Below are positions 9,776 through 37,270 of a stretch of DNA of 64,000 bases, piece after piece. The translations under genes were made by a program, and so were the position numbers. Under the pieces are notes generated by a model. It was not told where the DNA came from, did no database searches, and saw only the letters and a program-made list of their open reading frames with translations. Origin of the DNA: Agarophyton chilense (lineage: Eukaryota > Rhodophyta > Florideophyceae > Gracilariales > Gracilariaceae). The stretch lies in NCBI GenBank assembly GCA_030374765.1, contig JARGXX010000021.1, positions 372,001 through 436,000 of the forward strand, given 5' to 3'. Numbering within the stretch: position 1 is the first letter of the stretch; each line of letters opens with the position of its first letter.

Positions 9776-9788
9776 CCCCTTCTAAACT

Positions 9789-17555: not shown

Positions 17556-17557
17556 CA
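17556..17557. repeat. Left 2-bp target duplication (CA) of CMC-1
   Basis: The CA just outside the left terminal repeat is repeated at 36969-36970. The uninterrupted homologue in gypsy-2 (near 40640, minus strand) shows one CA at this point, which supports a 2-bp duplication. Confidence 0.75.
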
Positions 17558-17582
17558 CGTCTGTGTTTTCGGAAAGCTAGTA
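17558..17582 (+). repeat. CMC-1 left terminal inverted repeat
   Basis: The 25-bp repeat starts CGTCTGTGTTTTCGGAA and ends GCTAGTA. It matches the reverse complement of 36944-36968 at 24 of 25 positions. The same terminal sequence marks CMC-2 (46807 and 55242). It does not start with CACTA. Confidence 0.9.
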
Positions 17583-18270
17583 TTGGGTTCTAGATTTCTA
17601 GTTTGGGTGTGCTAGAATGTCTATGGTTAGCATTCATAGATTCGCAGATTTTTGATGCTAGAATATCTAGCGCAAAAATACTAGCCCAAGTGAAGTTCGG
17701 GAAGAATGTAGAAAACTAGCAATTATCCGTACTAACACCGGCACACTAGGAAGAATGGAAGAGAACTTTGGAGATATCTTTCGATACTCATTAATCCTAG
17801 ACCATGAATTCTACCGACAATGAAAGGAATACTGAACGCTATCTAGCGCATGATCATTCATTTAGCGCAGGTATCGTAGCTATTAAGAGCCGTTCAAATG
17901 TCCTGCACATTCAATTTAATGTCCTCTAATGACCCTAATGGCCAGTGCATAATACGGCGATCCAGCAACTGAGACCCGAAACGGGTCCCCGTTGCACGGG
18001 AAATGAGATCTTCCCAATTCGTATGCGGTGAACCGCTTTGCATCACGTCCCCCGATCGTTACGCTTCACCTCGCCTCGCGCGAAGCGCGACGCGAAGAAC
18101 CCTCCATTCTCCGAGAACCGTCCAAGCAGTACACCAGTTCACCCTTCATCAATCCCAAATTCCTACCTAAGTAGGTAGAAATCACAAAATCACACAAGTT
18201 AGAGCCCAATTTCTCGCTTCATGCAAGCACATTCCATATAAACAAACTTACCTCTGTCAATAATGTTCTC
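17583..18270 (+). other. CMC-1 left subterminal region
   Basis: Several CTAG-containing motifs (TTCTAGATTT, GTGCTAGAAT, ACTAGCCC, AACTAGCAA) occur between 17583 and 17730. They are mirrored at 36760-36945 near the right end and in both ends of CMC-2. By analogy with CACTA elements they may be transposase-binding sites. From about 17760 to 18270 I see no gene. Confidence 0.55.
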
Positions 18271-18276
18271 CTTGTA

Positions 18277-19560
18277 TTGCCTCCACTTTCTTCATTCGCA
18301 TCAATAAATAGAAAAAGGTCAGATCTCCGTCACAAAACAAACCCAAACCACATCAGCACGCCACTCACCTCTATAGCTACCACTTATCCCATCTCTTGTC
18401 CAATCTTGCCCTCTCTTCTCTTGCAGCAGCAAACAACGACAAGTCAGATCTCCTTCCCCAACGGCAAGTCAGATCTCCTTCCCTAACGCATACAAGATAC
18501 GATGGAAGCTCGCACTTATGATGCCACCATTTCCCGATCAACCATTGTCTTAACAAGAAAGAAATATAAGTCAGACTTCCACCAAAAATCGAAACCAAAT
18601 TACTTCAATGACGCACTCCCCTCCTAAGAAACTTGCTCGGCCCAGTCCTTCTAGAATATCTTTCTCCTCACCCAATCGCTCCTTTCTGTCGCTTCGCAGC
18701 AGCAAAAAGTAACATGTCAAAACTCATTCCAAAAACAATACCAGACACACGTAGCACTCGCACTTACCCGCACTTCCATCATTTTCCCTTCATACAACGT
18801 CGCCCGCACTTTCGTAACAATAAAAAAATACAAGTCAGATCTCCGTCAATAACAGAAAGAAATTCCTCAGCGACGCACTCACCTCCTAAGCCGCTTGCTT
18901 GATTCACTTCCTTCAAAGAGGTTCCCCTCCCCACACAATCTTTGCTCTCCGTCGCTTCGCAGCAGCAAACAAGAACATGTCAGATATCCTTCCTAAATCT
19001 CTACGAGACACCAGTACCACTCCCACTCACCTTTAACTCAACGAATCCTGGCCCCCCATTCCAATTTTCTGTCGCTTCGCAGCCACAGTCAAAAATATGT
19101 CAGGTCTCCGTACAGATTGAAGAGCAGAACACGTAGCAAACTCACCTGTTCATCATCATGAGGGCCGCTGAAATAGGTTTCCCATGTTTGCAACCAGAAG
19201 GAGAACAAACACACCAGGTCAATGTAGCGCGCCGCGTACCTCCAAATCGCAACCCAATCACCCGCCTACCCTCCACCCCACGCTGCATCACCCATCGCTC
19301 CCGTCGCTTGTCGCCCGCTTGCACATGACCACAAACAGTTTCAAGGCCACAGATCAACACAGACGACGTACATCTCAATCGCAAGCTGATCAACCCGTCA
19401 CCCCCCACACCGCACCCCATCACTAAACGCCCCGGTCGTGCTCCGCCCGCTCGCGCAAAAATAGAAACAGAGTCAGCACTTGTGAAACGCAAGCGCAATA
19501 CCGCTTCTGACGCACCTAGAAACCGCAGAAGGTCCACAAGGTCCAGAAGTCATCATATCA
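18277..19560 (-). repeat. Antisense array of about nine tandem exon/intron-like modules
   Basis: Units of alternating length (about 148 and 115 bp, giving a dimer of about 263 bp) repeat along this stretch. Read on the minus strand, each has a splice-donor-like box: GTGAGT at 18363-18368, 18877-18882, 19025-19030 and 19140-19145; GTAAGT at 18762-18767; weaker forms at 18514-18519 and 18615-18620. About 50 nt later comes ATCTGACTTGT or ATCTGACATGT, which resembles a branch point. Then comes a T-rich run ending TGCTGCTGCGAAG or similar, which resembles an acceptor. The segments between are purine-rich, about 40-75 nt. This could be a multi-exon element gene or spliced non-coding RNA running to the left end. 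A plain subterminal tandem repeat is the alternative. Confidence 0.6.
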
Positions 19561-19901
19561 CAGAATCTCAAGATCCAACAACCGCTCATCCGGCCAATAC
19601 TCACAATCAATACAAGTACACGCCGCCGCTCAAAAATATACAACTTTGAATATTTTCATTCCAACCCACTTTCCAAGCCACACATGCGCCGTTTCTGTCT
19701 TGCCGCACGACTTGTGGGTGTCTCTGGCGCATCACTTGACCTTTTTGAGTACGCCTGATAAGTTTAAACTCTCCCCACCGCCCTCGTCGTGCATCTTCCT
19801 CACCTCCAGCCTGTATATAGTATTCCCCTCTCTCCTCGTCCTACGTCTTTTTCACCTCCCCGATTTACTTTCCGAGATCGCGCGCAGGCACCCTCCACCA
19901 C
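19561..19901. promoter_or_regulatory. Possible divergent promoter region of CMC-1
   Basis: This gap lies between the start of the plus-strand transposase and the upstream edge of the minus-strand exon-like array, so it would have to drive both if both are genes. Its right half, from about 19800, is C/T-rich on the plus strand. I see no clear TATA box. The role is inferred from position only. Confidence 0.3.
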
Positions 19902-22900
19902 ATGCAGCCTTGTCGCTTCCCAAGGTGCACCTTCGAGACAAAAGGTCATACCTCCCTTGTCCAACACCAGCGCCGGTGTCGCTACCGCACCGCCCGCAAC
20001 GCCTTCGTCGCCACCACCCCAAAAGATGGAACTCAATTCCCACCACGCACGAAGCGCCCACGCGTCCAGACCGCAGACACCCGCTCCGTTGGCATCTCCA
20101 ACCCGCTTTCCAACATCGATCCGCTGGTAGAAGAGGACTACTACCATTCGAGCCAGCTCGCTCTGGCCATACGCTCCGCAGACGCCGCCCACATTCCCAA
20201 CGCTTCTCTTCCCTCCCCTTCTCCCAGCCCTCGCCCACTCGTGAAGCTCCATCCCATTGTCTCCTACATCTCATTCATCGCCACCAAGCTCGGCAAACGC
20301 AAAGCCAACGAACTCATTACCCTCCTCAAGGACCCCAATTACTCCCAAACACTCATTCAACAGGATACCTCCGTCTACCACTGCCTTCAACTTCATTCCA
20401 AACTATTCGAAGACACTGTCGGCTCCATCGGCTTCAAATCCACAACCGTTCGTCACAATCCCTCAAACATCACTGCAACTCTCTACCTCAAAAACCCCGT
20501 CGATGTCCATCTCCAGCAACTTCGCTACGCCACTCGCGCTAACACCTTCTTCCACCCCGTCAGACAGTGTTCTTCAAATGGTTCTCCTGCACTCGCTCAT
20601 CCCATGGCTTCAAAACTCGGCAGTTGTGTTTATCCGGACCTCAAACACCACATCCTCTGTTCTCAAGACCCAGATGTTATTTGGCACAACTTGGACATCA
20701 CTGGCATGGAATCTTTCATCGGCTTCATCCAGCTCTACTCGGACAAGTCTTCCACCTCCCTTAAAAGCTGCTCTATCACCTCCTACCCCCTTCACATCAC
20801 ACTCCTCAACTTTTCAGACTCCTTCCGCCGCCATTGCATCTCCCGCAACTACACCCTCCTTGGCTACTTCCCCACCTCGTTCGACGCCCCTTCCTCCCCA
20901 TCCGACGAGGAATCCATCGAAGGCCACCTTCTTTCTTCAGCCCTCAGCCGCACCACCCGAATGGAACTCATCCAAGAATCTCTACAAACCATCCTCGAAC
21001 CCTTAGCTGCAGTCGCCCTCAAGGGTTTCCCTTTCTGTGATGAAGACCAGGTCATTAGACAGTGCCACCCAGTCATCGCAAGCTATGCTGCAGACATCCC
21101 AGAAGCAAAAGACATCCTCGCCATCCTACACGGCACAAACCCATCCAAGCCGTGCCACAGATGCCTAACACCTCGCTCCGACCTCAACCTCCACCTCACT
21201 TCCGTATCCCCTCGAACTATTTCCCACACCCGTCGCACCAGATCTGCACACGACGCCCTTCTCAAGGATGCCAACGACGCCGAACAACTTCGCCGACCGC
21301 GCGTAGCAAGAACTCTTAGAGACCAAGCAGCATCTGTCCTCCGCACAAACTCCCTCTCCACGTACCACTCCTTCTTCGAAACATACCCTCTTCTTAATAT
21401 ATCCCCACTCCTCACCCCTTACTCTATCTTCTCCTTCGAACCCCTTCACAATTTCCATCTGGGTATCTCCAAGCTCGTCAAACTGGCAACCATCGAACGC
21501 TTGAAGTCCGACAGCCTCTTCACCACTCTCGCGTCCTCCAACGGCTCCTCAAAATCCTTTAAATCCATCCGAAGCTCCCTTCTCACCAACGCAAACAACA
21601 TCCTCGCAGATATTGAAGCCAAATTCTCCGCACCCGGACTGCACATCGACTTTTCCACACCCGAAAAGGGTACATACCTAAACGGGTTCTTCACCTTGGA
21701 CGGCATCAAAGGCATGCTCGAGGCAAAAGACTACCGCGCTGTCGACATGGTCTTCCCCTTCATAGGTGCCTTCTTCGACCGTTGTTGCGGTGAAGTTGAC
21801 ACAGCTCCCATCACCTCCATCTTCACAGCATACGCAGACCTCTTCACCGCCGCACTCCACCACAACACCACCTCAGAATGGAGAGACCAACGACTTTGCG
21901 ACCTCCAAGAACTCATCAAGCACTTCAAGTCTCTTTGCGTCTCCGTCCTCGCCCCTTTCCAAGCTTCTCACTTCGGAACACTGAAGTTCCACCTTCTGGA
22001 CCACATCATTGCTGATATTGATTTATACGGAAGTCTTCAATTCACTGACGCCGGCATCTACGAACATGCACACCTCCTCTTCAAAAACCACTATCGACGC
22101 ACATCCCGAAGATCCTCAACCGCTCACAGAGAAACAGTCGACGCAATCCAGCTCACAGAAGGCTTCCGAAACTCAACCGCTATTCCCCACCACATTTCCT
22201 CCTCCTCAAACTCCTCCTTCCTTCATGCTCGACGGTTTTCCATGGTCCGCGACGGTACCACCGTTCTCTTCCGCGACATCATCACTGCAAAGAAGTACCT
22301 CCGTGCAAACCGAAACTGCTCCAATGCCTCTCTCTCAAACATGTTCACCTCTTCCACCCTTTCTTTCATCACCCAAATCTCACGCGACGCCATTTCACCC
22401 TTTCACGACCTGTGCCTCGAAGCTCTCGGACTCTCTTCCTCTTCCCTGTCTCTCTCCTCTCTTACCTTCTCCCTGGTCAACTCCGCCTTCATCCCAAGCG
22501 GGTTCACCCCCGCCTTGCAAAACGTCGACCAAACATTCAACTGCATCCGCTTCAGAGAACCACCAGTCCCCGTCACACAGCGCATATTTGCCACCTCCAC
22601 CTTCGGTCCTTCCAAAGTTCCAAAGTTCTCTCACATTCTAGTCTCCGGTACTCCACCACCTAACTGCAACTTCCCCACTGTTTGGGTCTGCTAGCTTCTC
22701 GCCCTTCTTCGCTTTCCCAAAAAAGATGAAAATCCTGACGAACGCGAATATGCTTTCGTCCGCTTCTTCGAACTCACAACTCCCCTCGATCACGTGGATG
22801 AAACCCTGAAGTGCATCACCCTCCGTTGGGCAACAGACGATGAAGAGGACCACACCATCCCCCCCGCTGGAAACAGATTCCAACGCTCTGGCTCCTATGT

Positions 22901-23084
22901 CGCACCCTGGTTCGGTCTCGTTCCCTTCTCCGCCATCCTCGGTTCCGTCCATCTTGTCCGCCAGAACTACCCAGCACGCCCTTTCTTCCCGCCCCTCCCC
23001 TGGCATGAACATCGCTTCTATTTCAACCGATTCTACCGCGACCCACGAGCTAGAGCTTGTTTCTCTACCAAAGAATCAACTTGA
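19902..23084 (+). pseudogene. Plavaka-like transposase (CMC superfamily), one internal TAG
   Basis: The predicted protein is about 1060 residues, starting at ATG 19902. The N-terminus has a zinc-finger-like pattern (CRFPRCTFETKGHTSLVQHQ with a following C), common at the start of Plavaka transposases, which supports this start. Family blocks follow: IQLYSDKSSTSLKS then SYPLHITLLNFSDSFRR and LLGYFPTSF (residues about 285-335); GFPFCDEDQVIRQCHPVI, YAADIPEAKDIL and PCHRC (about 370-420); and a long helical core to LDHIIADIDLYGSLQF. An in-frame TAG at 22692-22694 follows VWVC, but the same frame continues with family-like sequence (EYAFVRFFE, SYVAPWFGLVPF, HEHRFYFNRFYRD) to TGA at 23082. The TAG is therefore probably a late nonsense change, possibly from CAG. 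It would cut and paste the element in the nucleus. It ends 34 bp from a convergent minus-strand gene. Confidence 0.8.
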
Positions 23085-23118
23085 AGCAAATGAAATCCAC
23101 CTTCTGATAGTAAAGTTA

Positions 23119-25940
23119 TCACTCATCAAAAATATCTTGTTCACCTCCGCCTTCCACCCCCTCCCCATCTCTCTCCTTCCCTTCCTCTTTCCCCTCACAC
23201 ATTTCTTTCTCCTCCGCTAACAACTCCCTAAACTCGCGTTCTTCAGGCATACAACGTCCGACGTAGCAATTAAGTATATACCCGAGAAAAGTCGTCATCT
23301 CCTCCTGAAACACCTCGTAACGAACACCCAGATAGACCAGTTGGTTCGAAGGCATCCAAAACGCAACGGTCCCTTCACGTTCCTCATTTCCCATCACTTC
23401 AGTCGGGTCCTCACCATTCACACCATGGTTCACCAGCTCCTCTCCGAACTTCTCTTCCACCTTCCTTCTCGCTGTCCGTAAGATATCCTCCACAGCAACC
23501 GGCAGATGCTTCGCATACAGTTTCGAAAACACCATCTGTCGCTTCTCTCCTCTACCCATCTCCTCATCCAACGCCTCTACCACAGATGCAATCCACGCAT
23601 CCAAGCGGGCCAGATGCATCACACTTCAATCCACATACTGTGTCTCTCCTTCCTTCCAAGGTTGCTCTACATCGTACCCCATAAACTCTCTCAAAACCTC
23701 CACACTCAATCCGTTCTTGAAGTACAAGTCATCAGGTTCATCCCCATACTTTGTCGAGTTCACATCGTACCCTGCAAAACGTAGGTTTTCCATCTTGTCT
23801 AACCTCCACGCAGATATGACGGGCTTCCCATTCGCGTCTTTCGGCAACAACTTCTACCGAGCCTCCATCTTCTGCTCTTCATACAACACATTCAGTTCTT
23901 CATCATCCTCGTTAAGAGGTTTTCTAGCAAGTAGAGTATATCCCAGACCCAAAAACAACCTATCCCTCGCATTCCTTTTCCGCACCCCCACAGCATCACT
24001 GAGAGCCTGTTTCATCCGCCTCCTCAAACACGTATCCCTCCTCAACTCCTCTTCACACTGCTTCTTCATTCCCATCCCCACAAATTTTCTCCATATCGGA
24101 TTCTCCAACTCCATCCGCACCACATGCAACAACATCTCATCACTTCCCCCCTGAAAAGACGGAGTGTAGGCCTTCGGTCCCCACGACTTTCTTCCTGTTG
24201 CCAGCTCCATAGGATCTAAAGGCACCATCTTCTTTTCATTTATAATCAGAATAATCTGATTCCTCCCCGCCCTCACTTCTTCTGCCCGGTTTGACCAGTT
24301 TCGCTCCGGTTCCCTCCTTCTGAAGCACAACTCACTCGTCTCCTCCTTTGCATGACGCAATATGTTCTCGTAAACTCTCGAGGCTACTCCAATAAATCGC
24401 ATATCCACTTCAATTCCATACCGTTTCCGACCCCCTTCCCTTCTTCGCCACCCACTTGTCCTGGTCGACCACGAAGAATCTCTTGCAATGACGTCAGCAG
24501 CATTTCCTTTTTCCTATCTTCGACCTCCAGCCTCTTCATCTCCCTGTGTGCCAGTTTCAAGCTTAGTTGCAAACTTGCGTTGTCATCCCTTGCCCTTTTA
24601 AGCTCCCCCTTCATGTCTCCAAGCTTGGCCAACAGCTGATTCCGCCCCATAAACTTTGTTTCTGCATACGTCATCCCCTTGTGTTCGCCTTACTTCCACG
24701 GGCGAATTGCATCCTCATCCTCCTCATCCCCACCCCAGAGTCCATCTCCTTTTTCAACCGCCACTCCCTTCCTACACACCCTCACACTCTGGTTTCTCGG
24801 AGGTCTCCCCGCGCCCACTCTGTCGTTTGACCCCTCAGCGTCCCCTTGTTCGACACTCCTCACTGCATGATCCGGGGTCTGTCGATAAGAAGCCTATTGT
24901 ATTGATCTGCATTCCGGAACTCTGCGAAGCTGCACCCCCTTCCTTCCAACCACGACTCCTTTTCCCGTAGGCTCCGTCCCTACACGTTTTTCCCCGCTCA
25001 CGCTTGGTATGGCCCATGGAAAACGAACTTGGCACTTATGCCGTTCCGCACTCCCACCTGGAACAATTTTGTCCTTTGATTCGTCAAAAACGTGTTTCTT
25101 TGAAACAGCAGTGCCTCCGCCTACCTCATTCATTTCTGAACCATGCCCTTCTGCCTCATTGCCTTCTCCATTTTCATGGAAGTTAACACCATGGGAACCA
25201 CTACACCGTCGCCTCTTCGCTTGTCTCTCGGACCCATTTTCTTCGTCACTAGCTAAGGTTGGAATGTCGTGAACGGCCCGATTACGAGTCACCGGACCTC
25301 CCGAATTTCTTTCGATCCTCCTCACCACCTCGCTCAACGTACCTTCCGTCGCAGACGACGAACCTCTTTCTTGCTCCTTTTCCTTCACCGTCTTAACAGA
25401 GGGCTTCTTGGCTGAAGGTGCAGACCGAGTGGAGGACGGTGTCTGTGGAAGAGTCGCCGCTTCGCCACCATAAAGTTTCATCATGTTCACGTCCCAGCAA
25501 TAGAAAGAGTTGCGCTCCATATCTCCCAGACGGTTCGGTACGGTATCTGTTGTTTTGAACGGATAAGGGTAATCCATTTTTTTCTCATCCTGAATCAACA
25601 CCTTCCATACCACCACGGGTTTCTCCTTCGCTTTCCCGACCAGTTTGTGACCATGCAACTCTCTAACCAAATCTCCCGTAAGCCTCCCTGTCGCATCAAC
25701 CGCACCCCTTACAAATGCCTTCCCCACGAATTTCTTTTCGCCGTTCGGAGTGGTCACCAACAGAGTCACCTGCTCGTCAGGTTTTGGCTTCCATGGAGGG
25801 ATTCCTACCTTATTCGCCCGCGTTGCTCCGCTGCGCGTTGTAGATTTCGCGTCCTTCCTGGTAGAAGCCGTAACAAGCGGCTTGTGTTTCCGAGAACTCG
25901 GAATGATCCTCCTTTTCTCTGCGTTTTTGCGCCGCATCAC
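23119..25940 (-). pseudogene. Unidentified gene converging on the transposase, decayed
   Basis: A run of minus-strand open segments spans about 940 codons, mostly in one frame, with about five lesions. The first part (25940-24894) is basic at its start (RRKNAEKRRI) and has a compact domain-like stretch with VTLLVTTPNGEKKFVGKAF and NSFYCWDVNMMKLYGG. The middle (24674-24384) is a predicted coiled coil (LAKLGDMKGELKRARDDNA). The last part (24408-23119) is rich in charged helices (PIWRKFVGMGMKKQCEEELR) and ends acidic. I do not recognise the family. Its place directly tail-to-tail with the transposase suggests a second element gene, like the accessory DNA-binding protein of CACTA elements, but a captured host gene is equally possible. 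Confidence 0.5.
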
Positions 25941-25981
25941 GGGAACCTATCGATAAGCGCCTCGGAATCTCTCCTAGACCG

Positions 25982-26779
25982 TCACGAAAAGCAGGGCTCG
26001 CTGACAACGTAAATGAACACTCGTTGGCTACGTAGCCATTCGATAGGGATCACGGGCTTGCTTGACCTCTCTCGGACGATGGCGAACAGAAACGCGTGCA
26101 GACGAAGGGAATGAACGCTGCTTGAAGTCCTCTTCACGTCCAAAAGAATCGCTTTTTTTGGGTTCGTGATCTGGATGTGTTTCCGTCGACGACAAAGGTC
26201 TGCAATTACTCTTTGCACACCTGGTACAAGCAGCGTAAGAAACGGAAAAGGCGTGTGCGACTCGAGCCGTGCAACAAGAACATCTGCCTCAAGATGATTG
26301 ACTGCGAAAAAATCTTTTTTTTGCTGCTGCGCTATTTGGCGAGCTGCTCGATACCCAACGCAGAGACAAATCTCCAATGCGGGTATCATAGAAGCTTCGA
26401 CGACGTCTAAATCTGTTTCGCGTAGCCTTGAGTCATAAAGTGCCTGACTACTCACTTTATCAATGATAGCGAAGGTAATAGGAGTTGTTTTCTCCTCTGT
26501 ACCAAGCCACTTCTCAGCGCTCAATGACCTATGAAGATCGGCTTTCTGTCGGAAAAACCTCTCTGTGAAAGTCCATTGCATTCGCAACACGGTTTTTCGG
26601 CTAATGCTTTGCCTCCCGTACTCTTTGACCGCATGTACTGTACTCTCTTCGCTCTCAAGAGCGCACAGGGTGGGATGAGTTTCCGGACTATGGAGGCCGA
26701 AAACCAGTGGAGGCGATGGATTTACCTTCGAGGAATTGGAAAAAGCGAATTCAGAGCCCTGAGGATTTCCGTTTCGCAT
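25982..26779 (-). CDS. Hypothetical protein, 265 aa, inside CMC-1
   Basis: This is an uninterrupted minus-strand frame from ATG at 26779. The protein is mixed in composition, with no clear membrane segment or repeat. Segments such as FAIIDKVSSQALYDSRL and NHLEADVLVARL look foldable, but I recognise no family. It lies between the DCP1-like gene and the unidentified convergent gene, all on the same strand. It could be a separate captured fragment or spurious. Confidence 0.35.
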   Translation of the reverse strand: MRNGNPQGSEFAFSNSSKVNPSPPLVFGLHSPETHPTLCALESEESTVHAVKEYGRQSISRKTVLRMQWTFTERFFRQKADLHRSLSAEKWLGTEEKTTPITFAIIDKVSSQALYDSRLRETDLDVVEASMIPALEICLCVGYRAARQIAQQQKKDFFAVNHLEADVLVARLESHTPFPFLTLLVPGVQRVIADLCRRRKHIQITNPKKAILLDVKRTSSSVHSLRLHAFLFAIVRERSSKPVIPIEWLRSQRVFIYVVSEPCFS

Positions 26780-26904
26780 ACCGCAGTCACTCGAGCGTCG
26801 ACCATTTCGACTTCAGGTTCCGCTTGTGATGTTGTGAATTGGGCTTATTCTCGAGTTTATTTGCAAAGTAAATGCAGTCTTCCATTCTTCATCATTCGAA
26901 TCGT

Positions 26905-27756
26905 TCAGTGGCGGGTTGTTTCTTCGATCCAACGTTGGATAGTTACTGCGACCCTTTGCATCACGGAAGAAGTGTTCACATCTGGCGGCAGAGTGGCATC
27001 GGATACGCCGTGAATATGCTTCGATCCGGAAAAGAAGCGCTCTGGTGAATTATCTGGCACACTGGACCCCTCACTCGGTGTGGGGTTTTGGGTGGGTTGT
27101 AAGAGTGCATCGATGGGCATTTTCTAAGGACGTGGGTTGGGAATTTGAGGACGGGTCTTTGCGTTCTTGATACTGGCGTTACGTGTGGCGCGCTTCTGTG
27201 TACGTTGAGTGCGTGGGGAGGTATCGAGAAGGCGGGCAGATTGGGTGGGTTGTGAGGCAGACGTTTCGGATGATTGGGAGGAGGAGGGCATTTCGACGGG
27301 CAGTGACTGAGTCGCAGAGAGATATCTCCCTTTTACAAGAGCCTGGAGAAGTTGAAACACGGAAGAAGCCTCTGGTTTTTGATAAAACCAGATTCCGATT
27401 GTCTTTTGTTTGGAGTATGTGTAAATGATCATCTGGTCTTGAAGCTTGATCTCCTTGTTTCCAATGACGACGTCATCGGAATAGTTTTCAAGACTCTTAC
27501 GATTTATGACGAAAATGCGGTGACGAGCACGGGCGGAGTTGTTCGGATGGTTCACATGGAGCTCGACGACAAAGAAAGAGCCTTCGATATTCAGTCGACG
27601 CCACACTTTGCTGTCGTCGAGCTTATGGAGACAGAGGTGCGAGGCAAGTTTGATTACCTTTGTGACAGCTGGGTCGGCCTTTTGCAGCACGGACTAGTTC
27701 ATTTTAGCGGCGATAGCATCACGACGTGGAGGGTCGAAATAAATACCAGCCGTCAT
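26905..27756 (-). pseudogene. DCP1: mRNA-decapping enzyme subunit 1 (DCP1) homologue with two internal TAGs
   Basis: DCP1 activates the DCP2 decapping enzyme in cytoplasmic mRNA decay. The EVH1 fold is well marked: VLQKADPAVTKVIKLASHL, WRRLNIEGSFFVVELH, FVINRKSLENYSDDVV and TIGIWFYQKPEASSVFQLL, covering codons about 23-135 in the family's order. After this comes the Ser/Thr/Pro-rich tail usual for DCP1. The likely start is ATG 27756 (MTAGIYFDPPRRDAIAAKMN). An in-frame TAG at 27694-27696 follows directly, just before the conserved SVLQKADP. Plant DCP1 proteins read LNLTVLQ-like at this point. A second TAG at 27124-27126 interrupts the tail, which continues in frame as KMPIDALLQPTQNP to a TGA at 26905. 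No intron is needed. It is a host gene carried inside CMC-1. Confidence 0.8.
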
Positions 27757-28452
27757 ACTCACGGAAAGCACGAGACTGTTCGGGGCGCGAAATGAATCGC
27801 ACGGAGACACGCCTAAGAGCTGGACGGGAGAAAAGGGGGAGACGGAGAGGGGGGGGGGGGTTGGCTGGTACAGATGGTCGCATTGTTTCGCGAGGCGCAG
27901 CTGTGAGCCGGTTCGGCAAGGTGTTCCCAGCTCGAAAGTTGTCTGTTCACAAGGGCTTGCTCGCGACATGGGGAAGGCGGGAGGGAAGCGAAGGGATGAG
28001 GGTGACCATTGGGAGTTGACCAGGGACCGCAAGATGCAACGCCACCTCGCACATGGCGAAGATACGCAGGAGTGGGGGGAGCAAGTGCAGCGACCGCGAC
28101 TGTTAGACGAGCTGGACGGAATCAGTTGGGCACTGCGTTAGGCCATCGGAAAAGAGGATGACGATTCGGCTGCGCGTCTACGCGATATTGTAAAATACTA
28201 CCGATGTATTCTGCCAGAGATGATTGGCTTATATGTGCAGCAGGGTTACGTGAAAGAAGGAAATTCATTGGATGACTTAGGTTACGTGAAAGAAGTAAAT
28301 CCATTGGTTGAATGAGGTTACGTGGAAGCAGTCTCAAGGTGTAGACACCCGACCGGTAGCTTTTCATATTCCACGGCCATAGTCGCGACTTCTTCACCCG
28401 CACATGGTTGAACTCCGTTGAAATTCCCTAGCAGTCCTGAGATCTTTCAGAC
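27757..28452. other. No gene seen; short tandem repeats
   Basis: The stretch has a 10-base G run near 27850. It also has three degenerate copies of GGTTACGTGAAAGAAG-type sequence between about 28243 and 28335. I see no convincing coding region on either strand. Confidence 0.5.
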
Positions 28453-29385
28453 ATGGGGAAGCAGTTTTTTTGCATTGAAAATGAACGAAAGAAATGTCGG
28501 GTAAAGGACGTAGTGATCGGCTCTGATCCTAATCATTATTGTCTCATATGCAAGGAACCGATTCATATCATCTGTGGCACATCACCGGTGACACCGATAA
28601 TGAAAAAATACGGTTCAGATAATTCCTTAGAAGGCTGCGTCGTTTGCAGTGTATGTAAAAATCCAGGCGGGGCAAGTGGCGCGAGAGGTGTGTGCAGTGC
28701 CACTGAGGGGAAGCAAAGACGAGACAAAACTGATGATCAGAACTCAATTAGAGTCGTTGGAGAACTAATTCCATCCAATGTGAGGGCATTGGTATATGTT
28801 GAAACTCAAGACTCTCCGTAGAGGAGAGTGTTCAATGAGCATGTGCACTACTTGTGCGTTGCAGGGAATCCTCGTGCCGAAAGCTCTGAATGTGATCGTG
28901 CTCGCTTAATTCTCCCAAGAACTCCGCACAAGGTATACTGCACCGACACTCAGCTTGTGATTGATAAGCGTCGAAAAAATGCGGAGAAGGTCCGCAAATA
29001 CCGTGCCACACACAGAGGAAGGGATAACCGCAACGCACGACGTCGATACCAGGAGAAGAGAGATCAACGCGATAGTGTGTCTGCTAGCAATGCCACCTCA
29101 AAAAGAAGATCTACGGGAAAAAACCAAAAACCACGGGTATTTCTTACACCGGCTGGAAGCAGACGAGGCACTGCTGACCCTCACCATCTGCAAGGTGTAT
29201 ATCACGTTCACACGGTTACTGACCTCTATGAAGTTCGGCGAAGCTTTCACAAATACACTGCATCGGAGATTCCTGAACACGAAAAGAAGAAAATCGTTGA
29301 GTTGCAGGCCGACGGGGAAGGTGGACGTCAACTAATGTTGGTAACCGAAGAAATCGAAGCGATTGATGCCGGGAAAATGCCGTAG
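28453..29385 (+). pseudogene. Zinc-binding, basic protein ORF with one internal TAG
   Basis: A frame of 311 codons starts at ATG 28453 and ends at TAG 29383. The N-terminal part has a compact Cys/His cluster (HYCLICKEPIHIICG, then CVVCSVC), patterned C-x2-C-x4-H-x3-C plus C-x2-C, which could bind zinc. A strongly basic segment follows at codons about 175-225 (RRKNAEKVRKYRATHRGR), likely nucleic-acid binding. An in-frame TAG at 28819-28821 separates the two parts, but the frame stays open for 187 more codons. It may be an element-encoded DNA-binding protein or a captured host gene. I cannot name the family. Confidence 0.45.
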
Positions 29386-29388
29386 ACT

Positions 29389-29915
29389 TGTAAATGATAC
29401 GGCAAAGCGAAACAATCCATCACATATGTTGAGCAATACTGACGGTCATTCCAAATCGGTGAATTGAGCCAGCCATAGTACAGTTCAGATCATTTGAAGA
29501 TCGAATGTCGGAAGAGGATACCGTGAGTACAATCGAACACATGCCATTTGTTGAAGACATTCATGTCAATTTCGGCTGGTTCACGAGAAAAAACACACCT
29601 GCATCTCATTCTTGTTTGTTTCTTGCATCGCGTTTGCCAGACATACCTCTTCGGCGCGTATGTTGCATTTCAGCCTTTTTGAAGGATAAGAACATGGTGC
29701 CATTCGGGAAACCTCCTGAAAAGAATGAAGGTTCGGCGTTTGAGAATAAAGAGACACGTTTTCCGTGACTCCTGTCAATTGAACGGAATGGTTGCATTCT
29801 TCGTCCGTTTCTTTTCTGCTTTCCTTGTTCCCCACCTTTTCTATCCGGAATTGCTGTGGGTCGAGGTCTCGTTTCCTCTAGAACTGTCCGTGAGAACTTT
29901 CTGATTGGTGATTCT
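29389..29915. other. No gene seen
   Basis: Only short frames occur on both strands, none resembling a known family. The stretch separates the zinc-binding ORF from the 51-bp minisatellite. Confidence 0.4.
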
Positions 29916-29919
29916 TCGA

Positions 29920-30745
29920 CAAGCCGGGTGCGGGGTTAGTTTGGGACAGGGTTGCGGCAGTGGTGTAGGGAGAGTCGGTGCGGGATTGAGTTGCGAACGG
30001 GGTTGCAGCGGTGGTGTAGGCAGAGTCGGTGCGGGGGTGAGTTGCGAACGGGGTTGCCGCGGTGGTGGAGGGAGAGTTAGTTCGGGGGTGAGTTGCGAAC
30101 GGGGTTGCCGCGGTGGTGGAGGGAGAATTAGTGCAGGGGTTAGGTGGGGACAGGGTTGCGGCGGTGGTGGAGGGAGAGTTAGGGCGGGGGTGAGTTGCGG
30201 ACGGGGTTGCGGCGGTGAGTTTCGGACGGGGTGGCGGCGGTGTTGGAGGGAGAATTAGTGCGGGGGTTAGGTGGGGACTGGGTTGCGGCCGTGGTGGAAG
30301 GAGATTTAGTGCGGGGGCTAGGTGGGGACAGGGTTGCGGCGGTGGTGGAGGGAGAGTTAGTGCGGGTGTGAGTTGCGGAAGGGGTTGCGGCGGTGTTGGA
30401 GGGAGAATTAGTGCGGGGGTTAGGTGGAGACTGGGTTGCGGCCGTGGTGGAAGGAGATTTAGTGTGGGGGTTAGGTGGGGACAGGGTTGCGGCCGTGGTG
30501 GAGGGAGAGTTAGTGCGGGGGTGAGTTGCGGACGGGATTGCGGCGGTGCGTTTCGGACGGGGTTGCGGCGGTGTTGGAGGGAGAATTAGTGCAGGGGTTA
30601 GGTGGGGATTGGGTTGCGGCCGTGGTGGAAGGAGATTTAGTTCGAGGGTTAGGTGGGGACAGGGTTGCGGCGGTGGTGGAGGGAGAATTAGTGCGGGGGT
30701 GAGTTGCGGACGGGGTTGCGGACGAGTTAGCGGCGGCAGATGATG
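29920..30745. repeat. G-rich minisatellite, 51-bp unit, about 16 copies
   Basis: The unit resembles GGGGTTGCGGCGGTGGTGGAGG followed by GAGAGTTAGTGCGGGGGTGAGTTGCGGAC, and repeats with small changes. Two unit variants alternate in places, giving a higher-order pattern. Because 51 is divisible by 3, long open frames run through it on both strands. Confidence 0.9.
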
Positions 30746-31024
30746 TTTTGGTTGTGGTTGTACAAACGTTGATTTTGAAGACGGAGTTGGGTGTGGCATT
30801 GTATTTAGCAGAAAGTCGGGGAAGGTATGTCGCACTGAGAAAGGAGGTGGAGAGGAAATGGCAATGTTATGGTTAGTTGCGGACGGGGTTGCAGCGGAAG
30901 GTGATGTTTTGGTGAAGATGGTACAAACGTGGGTTGTGAAAGCTGAGTTGGCGTTTCCAGTGGATTCAAAAAGAGATCGGGGAATGGTTGCCCTGAGGAG
31001 GGCGCTGGAGAGAATGTGGATCAC
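30179..31024 (-). CDS. Ser/Thr/Pro-rich repeat protein ORF over the minisatellite
   Basis: The minus-strand frame of 281 codons starts at 31024. It has a short unique N-terminus, then a Pro-rich stretch, then 17-residue repeats of the type PPNPRTNSPSTTAAT. Such repeats resemble mucin- or cell-wall-type glycoproteins, but the plus strand is open too and could encode a Gly-rich protein. The frame may simply be a by-product of a repeat whose unit is a multiple of three. Confidence 0.3.
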   Translation of the reverse strand: MIHILSSALLRATIPRSLFESTGNANSAFTTHVCTIFTKTSPSAATPSATNHNIAISSPPPFSVRHTFPDFLLNTMPHPTPSSKSTFVQPQPKHHLPPLTRPQPRPQLTPALILPPPPPQPCPHLTLELNLLPPRPQPNPHLTPALILPPTPPQPRPKRTAAIPSATHPRTNSPSTTAATLSPPNPHTKSPSTTAATQSPPNPRTNSPSNTAATPSATHTRTNSPSTTAATLSPPSPRTKSPSTTAATQSPPNPRTNSPSNTAATPSETHRRNPVRNSPPP

Positions 31025-31452
31025 GGTGACGACGGTTGAGGCAAAGTAATATGAAGTTTGGAAGCAGTCGGTGCGCTAGTCCCAACAAGATGGCGAGTTG
31101 GAGGGTTGGCTTTTGGAAGGAAGGTGCGTTACGTGCAGCGTTGGATGCACCCTCGGTGAAAGCGCTGAGGGAGAAGGGAGGAGGGGAATGCGTAAATGGG
31201 GATGGCGGGATGCGGCTGTATGCAGGGGCGCGAGCAGCGCGGTAAATGTTTGGTGCGCGTCGAGCTGGGGCTTAAGGATGACTAGGGTTGAGAGAGAGGG
31301 AGGAGGAGGGTCCAGGGAAGGGGAGGGACTGCGTTCGGGGTAGTTGTGGTGGTGGTTTGAGCATCGCGGTTACCGGGTGTTTTGGACCTCGACAAAGAGC
31401 CGTGCGAGTATGCAGTGATACCTGGACATCGGTTCCCTTTTGAAACAACTGC

Positions 31453-31499
31453 GCGCGCGCCCCATTTTGGACTTACTACGTCCAAAATGGGGCGCGCGC
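31453..31499. repeat. Perfect 20-bp inverted repeat with 7-nt loop
   Basis: The left arm (31453-31472) and right arm (31480-31499) are exact reverse complements (GCGCGCGCCCCATTTTGGAC and partner), with loop TTACTAC. The stem would be very stable. It lies inside CMC-1 and is not next to any gene I can name. Confidence 0.9.
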
Positions 31500-32555
31500 T
31501 GCAATTGTGCCACGTATGGCGCACCCAAATCGCAAACGACATATTCGCCTGGCTTTTCGTCATCAACTTGATGGGCCCTGGTCTTTCGTTCGAGCAAGCC
31601 ACGCGCCAGTGAATTTCGCTGTGCCGACTCTTCAGCCCTTTCGACCAGCAACTTCTCTCAGAACGCGAGTTTTTCCTCCCTCCTTCCAATGCCGAGGCCA
31701 ACCTCTCTCGTCATCGCCGAAACAACACTCGCCGCTTGGCTCGCTGCCTTTTGCGCTACTTCCTTCTCACGGCCCCAGACCCCAGCATCTCGCTTCCGGA
31801 TGAGGGCGCCAGTGAGAAGTGGGACCAAAAAGCTACAGTTGGGGATCGTACTGCTGAGATGGACGCCTTGAAGTTTGCAGACTCCGTTGCCGTTGATTGT
31901 GCCAGTGCGTGCTAAGTTTTATCAGCGTATCGTAATTCACACTGGGGAATATCGTCGACCGTGAGTGAGAACTCTCTTTCACAAAGCTCTTCACACGGAG
32001 CTCTAGAAGAAGATCAGAAGCCTTCCTGTACGAGTCAGAGGGGTCTTAAGAGGTCCGCACAGCATCCGTCGACAAAGACATATGTCCACACAGTCTCATG
32101 TTGTTAAAATGGAAGGCCTTTTTCCAAGAGAGACGGTGAAGTTCACTATCTTATTTCTTTACTTGAATTGCAGCTCTTTTCAATGAATGAACTGTCTCTG
32201 TTCCGGGGAAGTTTGAATGATCCTATGGATTTCGCCCAGAAGGAAAGAATTTCTGTCGATGTTGAAACAAATGAGATTTCTTCGGCTACAATGCGACGGG
32301 TGCTTCTTGGGTTGCCACCAGCGTTGGAAACCATTCATGTGTTTAAGACGTGTCTGGGGTCTCTTGGTTGCGGACCCAAGCTTTCGCAAACTAAATCAGG
32401 GGAATCTCCTGACCCCGAGCTTATCCGGGAACCTAAACACAACGTGCCCGGCTTACTGGGTCCGCTTTCTGTCAACGACGAGGTGGTGCTGTTCATTAGT
32501 AGTCGCGGAGACCTACGAAGAACGCCCGGAAAGAAATTTCTAACCTCAGCGAAAA
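31500..32555. other. No gene assigned upstream of the Rieske oxygenase
   Basis: An open plus-strand frame at 32168-32605 (145 aa) overlaps the start of the Rieske gene in another frame and resembles nothing I know. The sequence may include the promoter and 5' leader captured with the oxygenase gene, but I see no decisive motif. Confidence 0.35.
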
Positions 32556-34185
32556 ATGCACGCGGGATTCTCCTTCTCCACTGTTGCTGTTATGCGTGCT
32601 GCTGACCATCCAAGCATCTTCACTAGTACCCGATGTTCCAGGACGCCGTCAGGATGCCTTGCCTTCCGAACTGCATCCTATTTTTCTTCTTTCATTCCAG
32701 TTTGGCATTTCCAGAACCTTTTAACTTTGACATGCATCAAGAAGAACCATGATGTCATGAATATCCCCGTGAAGAGTTCCAAGGGCTTTCCAACGGCAGA
32801 CGAGAAACGGCAGAGGAACAAGAGGTTCAACTGGTTTAACAAATGGTATCCTGTTTCTCTAGTAGATGATCTAGAAGTTAGACGGCGAAATGCAGTCCAA
32901 ATACTCGACACCGATATCGTCGTGTGGCGTGCGGAGGGAAGCGATGGCTGGACGGTGTTTCATGACCGATGTCCGCATCGATTTGACGCACTCTCAGAAC
33001 GAGTACGTTCGTCTACCTATTTCATACCGTCGTCAAAGTTACATTCATCTAACTCTTGAATCGCGCATAAACCGAACGACCAAGACCTTGGAATGTGGGT
33101 ACCACGGATGGCAATTCAACTCAATGGGAAAGTGTTCGGTTATCCCTCAAAGCAAGAGGACTCCATCTGATATATTATGCGCCGCTTCTTTGCCGAGCAT
33201 TGTGAAAAGTGGTATACTGTTTGCATGGATGGGAAATTCAGAAACCTCTTCGAACTCCCTTCCATCTTTTGTCGATGACGTGAGGGCAACGTACATCACA
33301 AGCTCTTACTCTCGTATCCTCCCTCTTTGCTTCACGACTCTGATTCAGAATGTACTCGACCCGGCACATATAAGTTTGTTGCTTTCCTCGGGCGTAAACA
33401 TTGAACCTATTCGGCAGTGAAACTTATTAACGCCTAATTTCTCTTCGTAGATTCATTTTGCACATCACGAGCAAATCTGGCATCGAGATCTTGCAGCTCC
33501 AATTCCTGTTCGTATACTAAAATCTCATACGATTGAGGGATTCACTGGAGACCACTATGATGGTTCTGTTCGGCTTAGGTATCGGCCGCCCTGTCTGGTT
33601 GAGATTGACACAGCCGACGGGCTGTCGTTTGCGTATTATGCGGTACCTGTTTCGTCTGGTGTAGTGCGTACATTTGCTTTGCGTGGGACCTCACGTCGTT
33701 TTCTACTTCGAATGCCTCATTGGTTTGATCACATTCAGCGAAATCGTTTTGTGGAGGAAGACTTAGACCTAATTATTTCACAACAGCGCGAAATGAGGAA
33801 AGTATCGAGAACAGCGGATTATACTGGGAGCTGGGGTGACTTTAATATGCCAACTAGCTCTGATAGACTAATCGTTGAAATGAAAAGGTGGCTTGAGGAT
33901 CACGCTCCCCTTCACTCATGTGAATGGTTTACATTCTTCCCCGGAGAAGAAAATATTGACAGATTCAAATCCAGAATGTCCAGTCACACAGTAGGGTGCA
34001 CTAGCTGTTCCCGCTTGAGAGGGGTCCTGGTACTAACTGAGAGACTTGGCACAATAGCTGCTGCAGGTGCGGCAATTGGTGGGCTTTTCACTGCCGACGA
34101 AGTGATAGTTGAATTGCGTGCGGTGATTGTGGTGTCCGGGCTTCTCTATGTCGTTTCTCAAGGATTGCGCAAAAGATTTGAATGA
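32556..34185 (+). CDS. PAO-like Rieske non-haem oxygenase, three exons
   Basis: Proposed exons are 32556-33002, 33085-33369 and 33451-34185, about 488 aa. The first about 90 residues could be a transit peptide. The Rieske 2Fe-2S ligands are C139/H141 (CPHR) and C153/H156 (CGYHGW). The mononuclear iron motif N-x2-D-x2-H-x4-H is N238, D241, H244, H249, and is complete only after splicing. A CTSC motif at about 427-430 and two hydrophobic segments near the C-terminus are hallmarks of the pheophorbide a oxygenase/TIC55/PTC52 group, plastid membrane oxygenases often acting on chlorophyll derivatives. Intron 1 (82 nt) is GT-AG. Intron 2 (81 nt) begins ATAAGT where GTAAGT would be expected and ends in TAG. 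The introns show it was captured as DNA, not through an mRNA copy. The substrate is unknown. Confidence 0.8.
33003..33084 (+). other. Intron 1 of the PAO-like gene (82 nt)
   Basis: The intron begins GTACGTTCG and ends CGACCAAG. Its removal joins CPHRFDALSER to TLECGYHGW in frame (phase 0) and brings the two Rieske ligand pairs together. Confidence 0.65.
33370..33450 (+). other. Intron 2 of the PAO-like gene (81 nt), AT-AG ends
   Basis: Removal joins NVLDPAH to IHFAHHE in frame (phase 0), exactly rebuilding the family's iron-binding motif. The 5' end is ATAAGT, one base from the consensus GTAAGT. The 3' end, TTTCTCTTCGTAG, is a good acceptor. A G-to-A change at the donor is the simplest reading. 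The minor-spliceosome AT-AC type does not fit well. Confidence 0.65.
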
Positions 34186-35765
34186 AGGGAATGGGAAATA
34201 TGATGGAAACATCCGCACTGGTCTTTTGCTGCCTCTAGGTGCGCACAGCTTTTATGATACCAGGACCGGTGTGTGCATCCATGGGAGGCTATCCCCATCT
34301 CAAGGCATTCCAAAATGTTTACTGGCGAAGAAAACTCTCTCGCAGGTTACTTCTTGGCGTCGAACAAATGTTTCAAAGCAACTCTAAGAAAGCAACTTCC
34401 TCGACTTCCTTCAGAACTCTTATACAGTTTGACATTGTAAGATACACATCCCCCGCCGCAGAACGAGCAAGTTACGTTTTCCTCTGCATCGACGTTTTTA
34501 ATACTTACAATGTGGTGTGACGTGCTTTTGTGGAATCCTGAGTGTGGTTTTAAACCCAAGTCTTGCTTCCGATGCGTTGAAAGCTTAAGCTCTGAGCGAA
34601 GGAATCGAATGTGCATTTGGGCGAGAGAGTTATCTTTGTTTGATTCGCATTCTAAAGCAAGGAAAAGATACGAGACTTTGTCTGATGAAGGAGTAAACGA
34701 CATGTGGGGCATTGCAGCATGGAGCAGATAATTGCAACTGCTCAGCTTTTTCACCATGGAAGCCGTGAGAAATTTTGATCGCATTTGATGGAGGTATCTA
34801 CACGAAGTGAATAACATCGGACGAAAATATACGAAGAGCTCATCATCGCATGTAATGTTCGTTTTGTCCGTTTGAACAAAAATGAATTCATCGAACTTAT
34901 TACATCCCAACAGATGACTTTTCACCTAGTCTAGGCCCGCAGTTTGTTGTTAACAGTCACATGGGAAGACTTAAATCCGGACTGCAAAACGTTTTTTACG
35001 CTCAACAGCTCGGAGATCAATGCGTGACAAAAGGTTCATAAATTGTCATCTGGGCGATTCACATTGATTAAGTGGAGGAAAAATCCGAATGCTGAGCTCC
35101 CTTTAGTGCTCAGCGTTTATCAGCGACGAAATTCGTTCTCACATGATAAACAGGAGAGGTTTATTGCTACCATAGAGCATAAACATACTCTTACCCATTC
35201 AATGCGGTTAACTGCACTGGGTTAATTAGAGCGAAGCAGGTTAGCGTTTCTCCTCTCTTTGTAGTGAACTCGTGCGCTGGGTCATGATGTATGCTCAGTC
35301 ATCGAGCCTTACCCCTTCCCCCACCCCCCAATGTAACACCCGGTGAGCTTTAGACTGGGTGGAAGTCTAACAAACTACGAGATCTGCACTCTGCGAATTT
35401 CGTCTCCAAGAGTGGAAAAATCTACAGGGCGTATTTTGTGTGATCGATGGAGGTATATCGTCTCTCCAGCACTCTTGCAAAGCTGCCAACATATGATGTT
35501 ACCAAGGGTTTGTACGTACTGTGAAGTAAATCCTTGGTAAAGCATGCTATTTATTGGAAAAGAGTGGATGATATCATGTCATGGTTGGTGTAACGCACGT
35601 ATGTACATGGTAGCTAATGAGCTACTCCAGTAATCAAGAGTGGAAGCCGCGGACTTCGGTTAGATTTCGAAAAGTTAGAGAGGACACCGGTGGCCTACAA
35701 ACTATCTCATTTCGTCCAGGTTTTCGGGAGCCGGCGACTATCCGTGTTGCAAAAAACGAGCTATG
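34186..35765. other. No gene seen
   Basis: A minus-strand frame of 192 codons (34347-34925) and several short ones lack any family resemblance or domain-like pattern. The stretch contains a polypyrimidine run near 35310-35330. It separates the Rieske gene from the DUF218-like gene. Confidence 0.4.
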
Positions 35766-36695
35766 TTAACGCTTTCGGTCTTCATCGGTTCCGATGCGAG
35801 CATCCCACGGTAATGGACCTTTGAACAAAGACCGACTGCAATGACGAAACAACGCAGAAAGCTAGGGACAACCCTGTGGATAGGGGTGATATCGAATGTA
35901 TTGATTTCTGTCCTGGCGTTTTGTGCTTAAAAGTGGTGAGTAGCAGCCGTACGGATCGCCAGAAAACGGCCCCAAGGCTTTGGCTCTTTCGCCAGCAGCT
36001 ACGCCGCGCATGCCACGAACATTTTGAGGGTCGACCCCGAAGTACTGGAATCGATGGGCAGGAAAGCGAAGTGCTCTGCGATGAATGTCAACAAAACGAT
36101 ATCGTTTAAACTCGAAGCCAACAACATTGAAAACGTGGGCATACCTTCCGGTAAGTTGATTAAAGCGACAGATTGAAAACAAAAGGTTCTCCATGGAATC
36201 TCGGGCATACTCTTCAGCAAAGGTGCGATTACGTACGTGCGTAGCTTATTGACCGAACCATGCCAAGGAGTCAGCGGCCATCCAGTATGTCATGCCTTCA
36301 CTTCGCGGACCGGTATTGCGACGCGTCTGTCCGCTGGAAAACAAGAGCAACGCGGTAGAATCATTGGCCGCCAGCTCGACTCCGCGCTGTATGTGACTGA
36401 GAAATGTGGGAACCTGTCCTTTTTGGAAGGGTTCGAGCTGCCAGTTGTTCTCGTCAAACAGCGACGCATGGTCCCATTGATGAGCAGTGTAAACTGCGTG
36501 GCCGGCCACCATGACCAAGGTAGTGAGGACGCGAAGATGGGGCGGGCGTGCATTGTCGGCGGTAGACTCAGTCAGGCCGTCGAGCACGACATCGTTTCGA
36601 AGGTTGCGGTTGGTGGGGGCGGCGAAAAGAAGAGCAAGAGAAGAATGCAGAGAAGAAATGGAGAGCGACTCAAACACGCAGTACGATACGCGCAT
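35766..36695 (-). pseudogene. DUF218-like protein gene with two internal stops
   Basis: A single minus-strand frame starts at ATG 36695, with a hydrophobic N-terminal region (LHSSLALLFAAP). Then come LVMVAGHAVYTAHQWDHAS, NNWQLEPFQKGQVPTFLSHI and TALLLFSSGQTRRNTGPRSE, the pattern of eukaryotic DUF218-family proteins. The second half shows FAEEYARDSMENLLFSICRF, VVGFEFKRYRFVDIHRRALR and FQYFGVDP, then HPYPQGCP and LFKGPLPWD. An in-frame TAA at 36246-36248 follows WFGQ, and a TAG at 35862-35864 follows GCP. The same frame continues through conserved sequence after each, to TAA at 35766. Both fit C-to-T changes of Gln codons. The function of this eukaryotic group is not settled. It lies about 250 bp from the right end of CMC-1. 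Confidence 0.7.
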
Positions 36696-36759
36696 GTCTT
36701 TGGTTTGTGAGCCAGTCTTTTGTCATTCACATCTAGCGTTTGGCATCCAAACATAGGCG

Positions 36760-36943
36760 GTAAACTAGCAGGGGCTTTTGCATTCGTTTCCCATTCATAA
36801 TTTGCAGGATTTTGATATAGAACAGAAAGCCAAAACTAGCTGGCACTCTAAAAAATTAACAGAAATTACCTCTGCATCCGCGATCCGTCATTTTTCGCAG
36901 ATTTTTCGCCGGATATCTTCCGGCATACTAAACTAGCGGCTAG
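36760..36943. other. CMC-1 right subterminal region
   Basis: ACTAGC motifs at about 36764, 36834, 36932 and 36944 mirror those at the left end. This clustering near both ends resembles CACTA-type subterminal repeats. Confidence 0.55.
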
Positions 36944-36968
36944 TACTAGCTTTCCGAGAACACAGACG
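36944..36968 (-). repeat. CMC-1 right terminal inverted repeat
   Basis: The reverse complement starts CGTCTGTGTTCTCGGAA and ends GCTAGTA, with one mismatch to the left repeat over 25 bp. It is followed by CA, the right copy of the 2-bp duplication. Confidence 0.9.
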
Positions 36969-37270
36969 CATGCCGGCCACGGCACCGCTCGTGTTCAGGC
37001 CATTAGAATGCTGAGGATAATGTCGTGCCGACCGCGAAGGCAAGATTGGAGGTTTACACATAGGTCCAACTAGAGCCCGACCCACAGGAAGGTGTGAGGC
37101 AGTTTTGGACTTCGCCGTGACGGTCGAATCTTAAGGACGGAGATATGTGAAGAAGCAGCGATTGAGGCTGAGTCCCGTGAGCCGCTGGGGCCTGAGGTAT
37201 CTTACAGGCGACACTTGGACGGGTCGACCTCAGGTGGAATCGTGTAGATTATTAATTTAGTTTAATTAGT

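Follow-up and report, generated by a model that had tools for sequence, protein, structure and literature searches.

A large Plavaka-group DNA transposon carrying host-gene segments in the red alga Agarophyton chilense

The stretch of DNA analysed here (the window; 64,000 nucleotides of Agarophyton chilense contig JARGXX010000021.1, or C21:372001-436000) contains a large cut-and-paste transposon of the Plavaka group, inserted as a single unit from position 17558 to 36968; we regard this insertion as established. This element (E21) carries a transposase together with copies of segments of host genes, and it very probably represents a family that has repeatedly captured and multiplied such segments (transduplication, as in Pack-like elements). 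Elements with the same ends are present at multiple sites, the same cargo recurs at several of them, the donor loci are still in place, and the cargo is layered. All searches were made in a single genome of 79.8 Mb in 135 contigs; coordinates are those of the window unless a contig is named, and sister elements are named after their contigs (E41, E61, E75, E88 and E97 on C41, C61, C75, C88 and C97).

Ends, empty site and transposase of the window element

As originally predicted, the 25-bp ends of E21 at 17558 and 36968 match each other at 24 of 25 positions, and the longest inverted repeat reported between 17000 and 37500 corresponds to these two ends (39 nt, 82%). The predicted target duplication and subterminal motif clusters were likewise recovered, with CA directly outside both ends and ACTAGC, counted on either strand, occurring three times in the first 400 bp and five times in the last 400 bp versus four times in the remaining 18.6 kb of the element. 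The features at the borders are as follows (strand in brackets, with a dot where none is assigned):

17556..17557 (.) 2-bp target duplication, left copy: CA directly outside the end
17558..17596 (+) left terminal inverted repeat (TIR), left type CGTCTGTGTTTTCGG; first 25 bp match the right end 24/25
17576..17720 (.) left subterminal ACTAGC motifs, 3 within the first 400 bp
36684..36968 (-) right terminal 285 bp; sister elements retain this part beside other cargo
36764..36950 (.) right subterminal ACTAGC motifs, 5 within the last 400 bp
36930..36968 (-) right TIR, right type CGTCTGTGTTCTCGG, from the inverted-repeat search
36969..36970 (.) 2-bp target duplication, right copy: CA directly outside the end

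The flanking gypsy sequence had been proposed to continue across the element, and this was borne out by the empty site: the flanks, joined with a single CA, aligned across the junction to the second, downstream copy of gypsy over 1,207 bp (74%, 54 gap positions), and a local alignment gave 71% over 305 columns, ungapped at the CA.

The proposed Plavaka-like transposase matched PF18759 at 78 bits (curated cut-off 26.3; E 9.8e-22) in a scan of 20 open frames of E21 against Pfam, in which short exons could escape. Its frame runs for 957 codons up to a stop that precedes the last 129 codons. Compared with a 1013-aa PF18759 relative it shows 34% identity over 97%, and the 129 post-stop codons reach the end of this relative. 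Moreover, between the second D and the last E the transposase has C(2)C as CHRC and then H(3)H as HLLDH, followed by YEH (read by eye in the alignment, with the D/E assignment being our own reading). Because of the in-frame stop, transposase is possibly supplied to E21 by another copy; in E41 the transposase frame is interrupted by two stops.

19902..23081 (+) transposase of the Plavaka group; frame open from 19821 to 22691 with its first Met at 19902, stop 22692-22694, then 129 open codons

A family of elements with the same ends

A whole-genome search for the end motif (24-nt pattern, at most 3 mismatches) returned 400 sites, versus none for the reversed pattern that served as control. Base 11, T or C, distinguishes left ends from right ends. 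When neighbouring convergent left and right ends within 45 kb were taken as a pair, the 135 compiled sites yielded 35 pairs, spaced 6.3-38.3 kb apart with a median of 13.8 kb; the other neighbours within 45 kb comprised one convergent same-type case (two left-type ends) and six non-convergent ones. Our tally of cargo covered four host-gene segments (DCP1, TsaD, the PaO block and PDS5), and 16 of the 35 pairs carry at least one of them (14/33 after merging C41/C70 and C40/C126). A match on C13 adjoins the PDS5 segment only, so that the number of cargo-carrying pairs is 16 rather than 17. Further insertions with the same ends and host-gene cargo, for which the original prediction had suggested searching, are thus present in this genome.

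The 2-bp duplication was scored at 33 sites, with C41 and C70 merged on account of their common flank and C75 (damaged end) left unscored. At 26 of these sites the two flanking dinucleotides agree, compared with a mean of 4.9 and a maximum of 13 in 100,000 shuffles. C126 and C40 are apparently one and the same site, in which case the count becomes 25/32. The largest pair with a matching duplication spans 36.3 kb (C68:3130360-3166656).

Forty left ends fall into 33 distinct flanks. Counting every left end as a separate insertion was rejected, as six of them (on C36, C41, C60, C69 and twice on C70) have one common flank of 95.5-99.5% identity; common flanks were also found for the left ends of C40/C46 and of C128/C129. 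The flank shared by six ends suggests that a larger repeated unit, or separate haplotypes, may have multiplied the element together with its surroundings. The flank of E61 (C61:40327-59233), in turn, differs from that of E21 and has its own AA/AA duplication, with the left 303 bp of E61 being identical to E21 and 3,225 bp around PaO showing 99.6% identity.

Host-gene cargo and its donor loci

The cargo recognised within the borders of E21 consists of the following:

25985..26812 (-) frame with a TsaD fragment; 26226-26466 (241 bp) is 91.7% identical to the host gene C92:662066-662953
26905..27869 (-) DCP1 5' piece (upstream DNA plus DCP1 domain), 91.6% to a 967-bp host stretch, with in-frame stops
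31801..32479 (+) remnant of an older cargo block; the counterpart in E41 (C41:6459-26919) is longer
32472..36684 (.) 4.2-kb block captured from the host; identity to C75:861412-865627 is 97.3%
32544..34182 (+) PaO-like Rieske oxygenase gene in three exon blocks (limits inferred), all open; 0 stops in 421 codons versus host
35770..36722 (-) DUF218-like pseudogene, limits approximate; the start and about 25 N-terminal residues of the host gene are gone at the capture boundary, two in-frame stops

DCP1 and a PaO-like Rieske oxygenase had been anticipated inside the borders, on both strands, and domain matches were found for both (DCP1, E 3.9e-24; Rieske and PaO, E 1.4e-7 and 8.5e-10). The further claim that whole genes of three families are carried did not hold, given that DCP1 and the DUF218-like gene are broken and TsaD is a fragment, that PaO alone among the captured segments looked at is open throughout, and that PaO and the DUF218-like gene were captured as one. 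Nor could the DUF218 assignment be substantiated: neither the window frame 36249-36722 (the only one tested) nor the intact host frame had a Pfam match, and the name denotes a putative resemblance. Its copy in E21 is truncated, and its two stops are not in the host copy. The TsaD fragment and the older-cargo remnant were absent from the original prediction.

Donor loci, for which a search had also been suggested, could be located, either on different contigs or at a distance of 26 kb from a carrier, and none of the four (DCP1, TsaD, PaO block, PDS5) is faced by a compiled end within 45 kb. For DCP1, the 19 genome matches comprise one host locus and 18 non-host places (about 15 after merging common flanks). 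The host locus (C88:2348548-2349514, match C88:2348706) has a longer unbroken open frame. Of the 18 non-host places, nine lie inside compiled pairs, and each of the other nine is faced by one or more ends less than 45 kb away (32.9 kb at most), so that all 18 have a facing end in that range. Nine element copies were read; these are 89.5-92.5% identical to 967 bp of the host locus, and each of them contains 1-4 in-frame stops relative to the host DCP1 frame. TsaD is represented by two full-length genes (C92 and C75, with the former as donor) plus 25 partial matches, on 22 contigs, and 9/27 of these places lie inside compiled pairs.

The PaO donor (C75:861412-865627) adjoins a SWIRM/Myb-domain gene and continues into an intact DUF218-like frame, and the 14.7 kb surrounding it contains no family end by pattern. 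PaO and the DUF218-like gene are adjacent at this locus and entered the element in one capture. The other PaO matches, at four non-host places, are all inside compiled pairs. Relative to the host, PaO shows 0 stops in 421 codons in each of E21, E61 and E75. E97 was left out of the PaO analysis of the ratio of nonsynonymous to synonymous change (dN/dS), as its locus matches only from mid-gene onward.

The fourth segment was found in E88 (C88:804938-824129, TA/TA duplication), which has only its first 3.0 kb and last 267 bp in common with E21 and shares only the 5' part of the E21 transposase. Its PDS5 DNA is 93% identical to C88:2287104-2289550, in two main pieces and with 373 bp missing, and the donor is open across 1019 codons. 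Capture of a reverse-transcribed PDS5 was considered and rejected: the missing 373 bp fall inside the open host frame, which indicates a deletion and not an intron. Matches to the PDS5 segment occur in seven compiled pairs, not counting the C13 match beside the segment. E88 also contains a nested long terminal repeat (LTR) retrotransposon (element positions 7063-13256) with a 1626-codon frame, of which a 436-bp LTR piece is 100% identical at both ends and at many places in the genome. On C88, about 60 kb separate the PDS5 donor from that of DCP1 (C88:2287104-2349514), a proximity that may reflect local capture by an ancestral element.

Layered cargo and a possible route of capture

Comparison of E21 with E41 (C41:6459-26919) revealed that the two have positions 1-14245 and the last 267 bp in common, with other cargo between. 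As the remnant of this old cargo at 31801-32479 stands just before the PaO block in E21, the older cargo appears to have been partly replaced. The left junction of the block, the sole left junction that could be read, is one at which old cargo, new element and host have TCAAC and GAC in common (3-5 bp). The left boundary of the PaO block is identical in E21 and E75, and its right boundary is identical in E21 and E97. E75 and E21 rejoin the 285-bp end at one and the same base, although in E75 the last 0.6 kb of the block is exchanged for about 1.3 kb of other DNA, and E97 matches the last 3.9 kb of E21, right junction included.

From these comparisons we infer the following order and direction of events. 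The transposase would recognise the terminal, and probably also the subterminal, repeats, excise the element and insert it with a 2-bp duplication. Segments of 0.2-4 kb from ordinary host loci would be copied into the interior of the element, and later transpositions would multiply them. Such capture occurred more than once: the TsaD and DCP1 pieces, lying in the shared core of one subfamily, would be the older ones, a further cargo block would have come next, and in one lineage the 4.2-kb PaO/DUF218-like block would then have replaced the part beside the right 285 bp. The copying step itself might be template switching while the gap left by excision is repaired, with which the intact donors and the 3-5 bp shared at the one left junction are in keeping.

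Most of the cargo examined looks like decaying passenger DNA, and PaO alone, judged from its open exons, qualifies as a candidate for a transported gene that still works. The original view of E21 as a gene-shuttling giant transposon can be retained for the copying and capture of DNA, and goes too far in implying the delivery of working genes.

Alternative explanations

A different route to the same structures is offered by the Pack-TYPE model, in which two element copies (or a copy and a solo end) flank a host segment, the outer ends are used, and the intervening DNA moves as a larger element. This model, which has been described for plant elements in passages of PMC8903248, is possible, if somewhat less than probable. 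It would account for the retention of the right-terminal 267-285 bp next to different cargo, and it fits both the distance of only 26 kb between carrier E75 and the PaO donor and the proximity of the DCP1 and PDS5 donors on one contig. However, the donors are in place, and a cut-and-paste carrier would require their survival on a sister or homologous chromosome. The model is also at odds with the finding that the 14.7 kb surrounding the PaO donor contain no leftover end by pattern and that no compiled end faces any of the four donors within 45 kb, and the 3-5 bp shared at one junction are what template switching would be expected to leave. An ordinary gene region between the two ends, with no single insertion, deserves almost no weight. 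The adjacency of PaO and the DUF218-like gene on C75 speaks for it, and the location of the DCP1 and PaO donors on separate contigs (C88 and C75) against it. An ordinary region between chance repeats was rejected on the basis of the empty-site alignment and the multi-copy family, and the duplication and the presence of the same block at other sites likewise oppose it.

It is also very unlikely that the carried genes (the DCP1 domain, PaO and others) are maintained as working cargo for element or host, in a Starship-like manner. The open PaO exons of E21, E61 and E75, the persistence of the DCP1 piece at so many non-host places, the five of 18 DCP1 matches that are stop-free inside the matched domain, and a dN/dS of 0.45 for the DCP1 stretch between E21 and E41 would all suit such a role. 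Against this stand the stops in all nine element DCP1 copies read and the two in the DUF218-like copy, the 25 nonsynonymous and 2 synonymous changes between host PaO and that of E21, which give no signal of purifying selection, and the 50 nonsynonymous to 7 synonymous changes in the TsaD frame between E21 and E41.

Repeated capture and multiplication by a Plavaka-group element hence remains our preferred explanation, and several observations weigh against it. Three elements (E21, E41 and E88) were read nearly whole. The 135 end sites were compiled by hand out of the 400 counted and consist of 132 pattern rows plus three added left ends, namely C75:816002 (first bases damaged) and two on C121, which were picked for facing a DCP1 match or a right end and on which the C75 and C121 pairs (2/35) depend; the left ends C105:964194, C128 and C129 lay outside the pattern rows and were left out of this compilation. 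Seven of the 33 scored sites lack a matching 2-bp repeat (C97, C3, C4, C10 at 614694, C68 at 2151641, C80 at 1427209, and C98, where AT stands against AA), and for the 38-kb pair, which is among those without a matching duplication, mispairing or a rearrangement is possible. For eight partial TsaD matches, no end in the compilation faces the place from within 45 kb, which may mean that other repeats (a second carrier) or uncompiled ends carried them, and the same lack of a compiled facing end applies to a second PDS5-like place (C97:230874-231831, 88%). Decay of DCP1 is incomplete in the five matches that are free of stops within the matched domain stretch. Moreover, dN/dS was 0.45-1.17 for the DCP1 piece, depending on the comparison, and 0.64 for the transposase, so that the cargo is not clearly set apart from the transposase. 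Finally, E75, which is among the four elements with PaO, is damaged at its left end, and its cargo shows 99.7% identity to the host locus at 26 kb distance, with E21 differing by about 3% from both. If there was a single capture, gene conversion or some other process must be invoked. The matching block boundaries favour one capture with later gene conversion between E75 and the neighbouring donor, to which allelic diversity of the donor is an alternative.

Comparison with known elements

Plavaka elements (CMCT clade; Kojima 2025, PMC12730594) have 2-bp duplications, and some families carry a TET/JBP gene. E21 resembles them in its PF18759 transposase, its 2-bp duplication and the placement of C(2)C and H(3)H as in PMC12730594. 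PlavakaA ends are given there as TGT..ACA and PlavakaB ends as CATCA..TGATG; the window ends, CGTCTGTG..CACAGACG with the duplication directly outside, fit neither. The family also differs in holding several host segments with donors still present, and the 20 scanned frames gave no TET/JBP match. In the passages drawn on from PMC12730594, PMC11244446, PMC8290104 and PMC9674265, comparable capture of host genes by Plavaka, TET/JBP apart, was not met, a limited search that does not establish its absence from print.

Parallels for the cargo exist in fungi, where Pyrenophora hAT and Tc1/mariner elements (PMC3538342) and a Pseudocercospora hAT element (PMC6710886) have a transduplicated histone H3 or H3-like gene between their TIRs, multiplied with or without decay. 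The Pyrenophora hAT element is about 5.6 kb long and contains the H3-like gene and one unknown open reading frame (ORF; PMC3538342). These are, like the family described here, DNA transposons with a housekeeping-type gene multiplied between TIRs. They belong to other superfamilies, whereas our family reaches 36 kb in pairs with a matching duplication and has layered captures. Plant Pack-TYPE elements, Pack-CACTA included, hold gene pieces of several loci between TIRs and are by definition non-autonomous (PMC8903248). Host gene DNA between TIRs, donors elsewhere (DCP1, TsaD, PaO block, PDS5) and multiplied segments are features shared with them, but E21 carries a nearly full transposase frame. 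In another red alga, Chondrus crispus, enlarged En/Spm (CACTA) families of the CMC type measure 16-20 kb and have 4-5 ORFs (PMC6431247). They are similar to E21 in type, size and extra ORFs, with the difference that the passage concerned names ORFs and not located host donors. Gene capture and multiplication are thus known from fungal hAT and Tc1/mariner elements, and what appears to be new here is the superfamily, the size, the layered cargo and the located donors.

Starships of the Pezizomycotina are large fungal mobile elements with host-gene cargo and a tyrosine recombinase captain. E21 is likewise a large mobile element with host-gene cargo, and differs in its TIRs and Plavaka transposase; no tyrosine recombinase domain was detected among the 20 frames scanned, from which short exons could escape. 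That the family would be a Starship counterpart built on a Plavaka transposase, a giant family serially loading, swapping and redistributing host segments and occasionally delivering a working gene such as PaO, possibly between strains, is an unlikely and speculative extension of these findings. Helitrons have RepHel and are without TIRs or target duplication. E21 has TIRs and a 2-bp duplication, and no helicase was found among its 20 scanned frames. The likeness is that of a gene-carrying DNA transposon, as reported for the rolling-circle Helitrons of the basidiomycete Pleurotus ostreatus (PMC4289320).

With ends, empty site, duplication, carriers and donors in one genome, the family provides an unusually clear non-plant case of gene capture by cut-and-paste elements. 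Its captures are of different apparent age (donor identity of about 92% for DCP1 and TsaD, and 97-99.7% for PaO), which together with the junctions makes the copying mechanism testable. Match counts of DCP1, TsaD, PDS5 and PaO in such genomes may, moreover, be inflated by transposon passengers.

Further features of the element and its surroundings

Three additional features were noted in the core shared with sister elements:

24897..25946 (-) 350-aa open frame without a Pfam match
28441..29382 (+) two adjoining open frames, the first with a weak, sub-threshold zinc-finger match
29928..30721 (.) 51-bp tandem repeat array, from the repeat search

The 350-aa frame is stop-free in the comparison of E21 with E41 and is a candidate for a second element protein. 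The tandem array is GC-rich and overlaps open frames of both strands. A near-perfect 23-bp palindrome (96%), with arms separated by one base, is located at 31453-31499. Upstream of the element, a T-rich stretch at 10001-14000 has the lowest GC content among the 2-kb bins of the window (36-37%).

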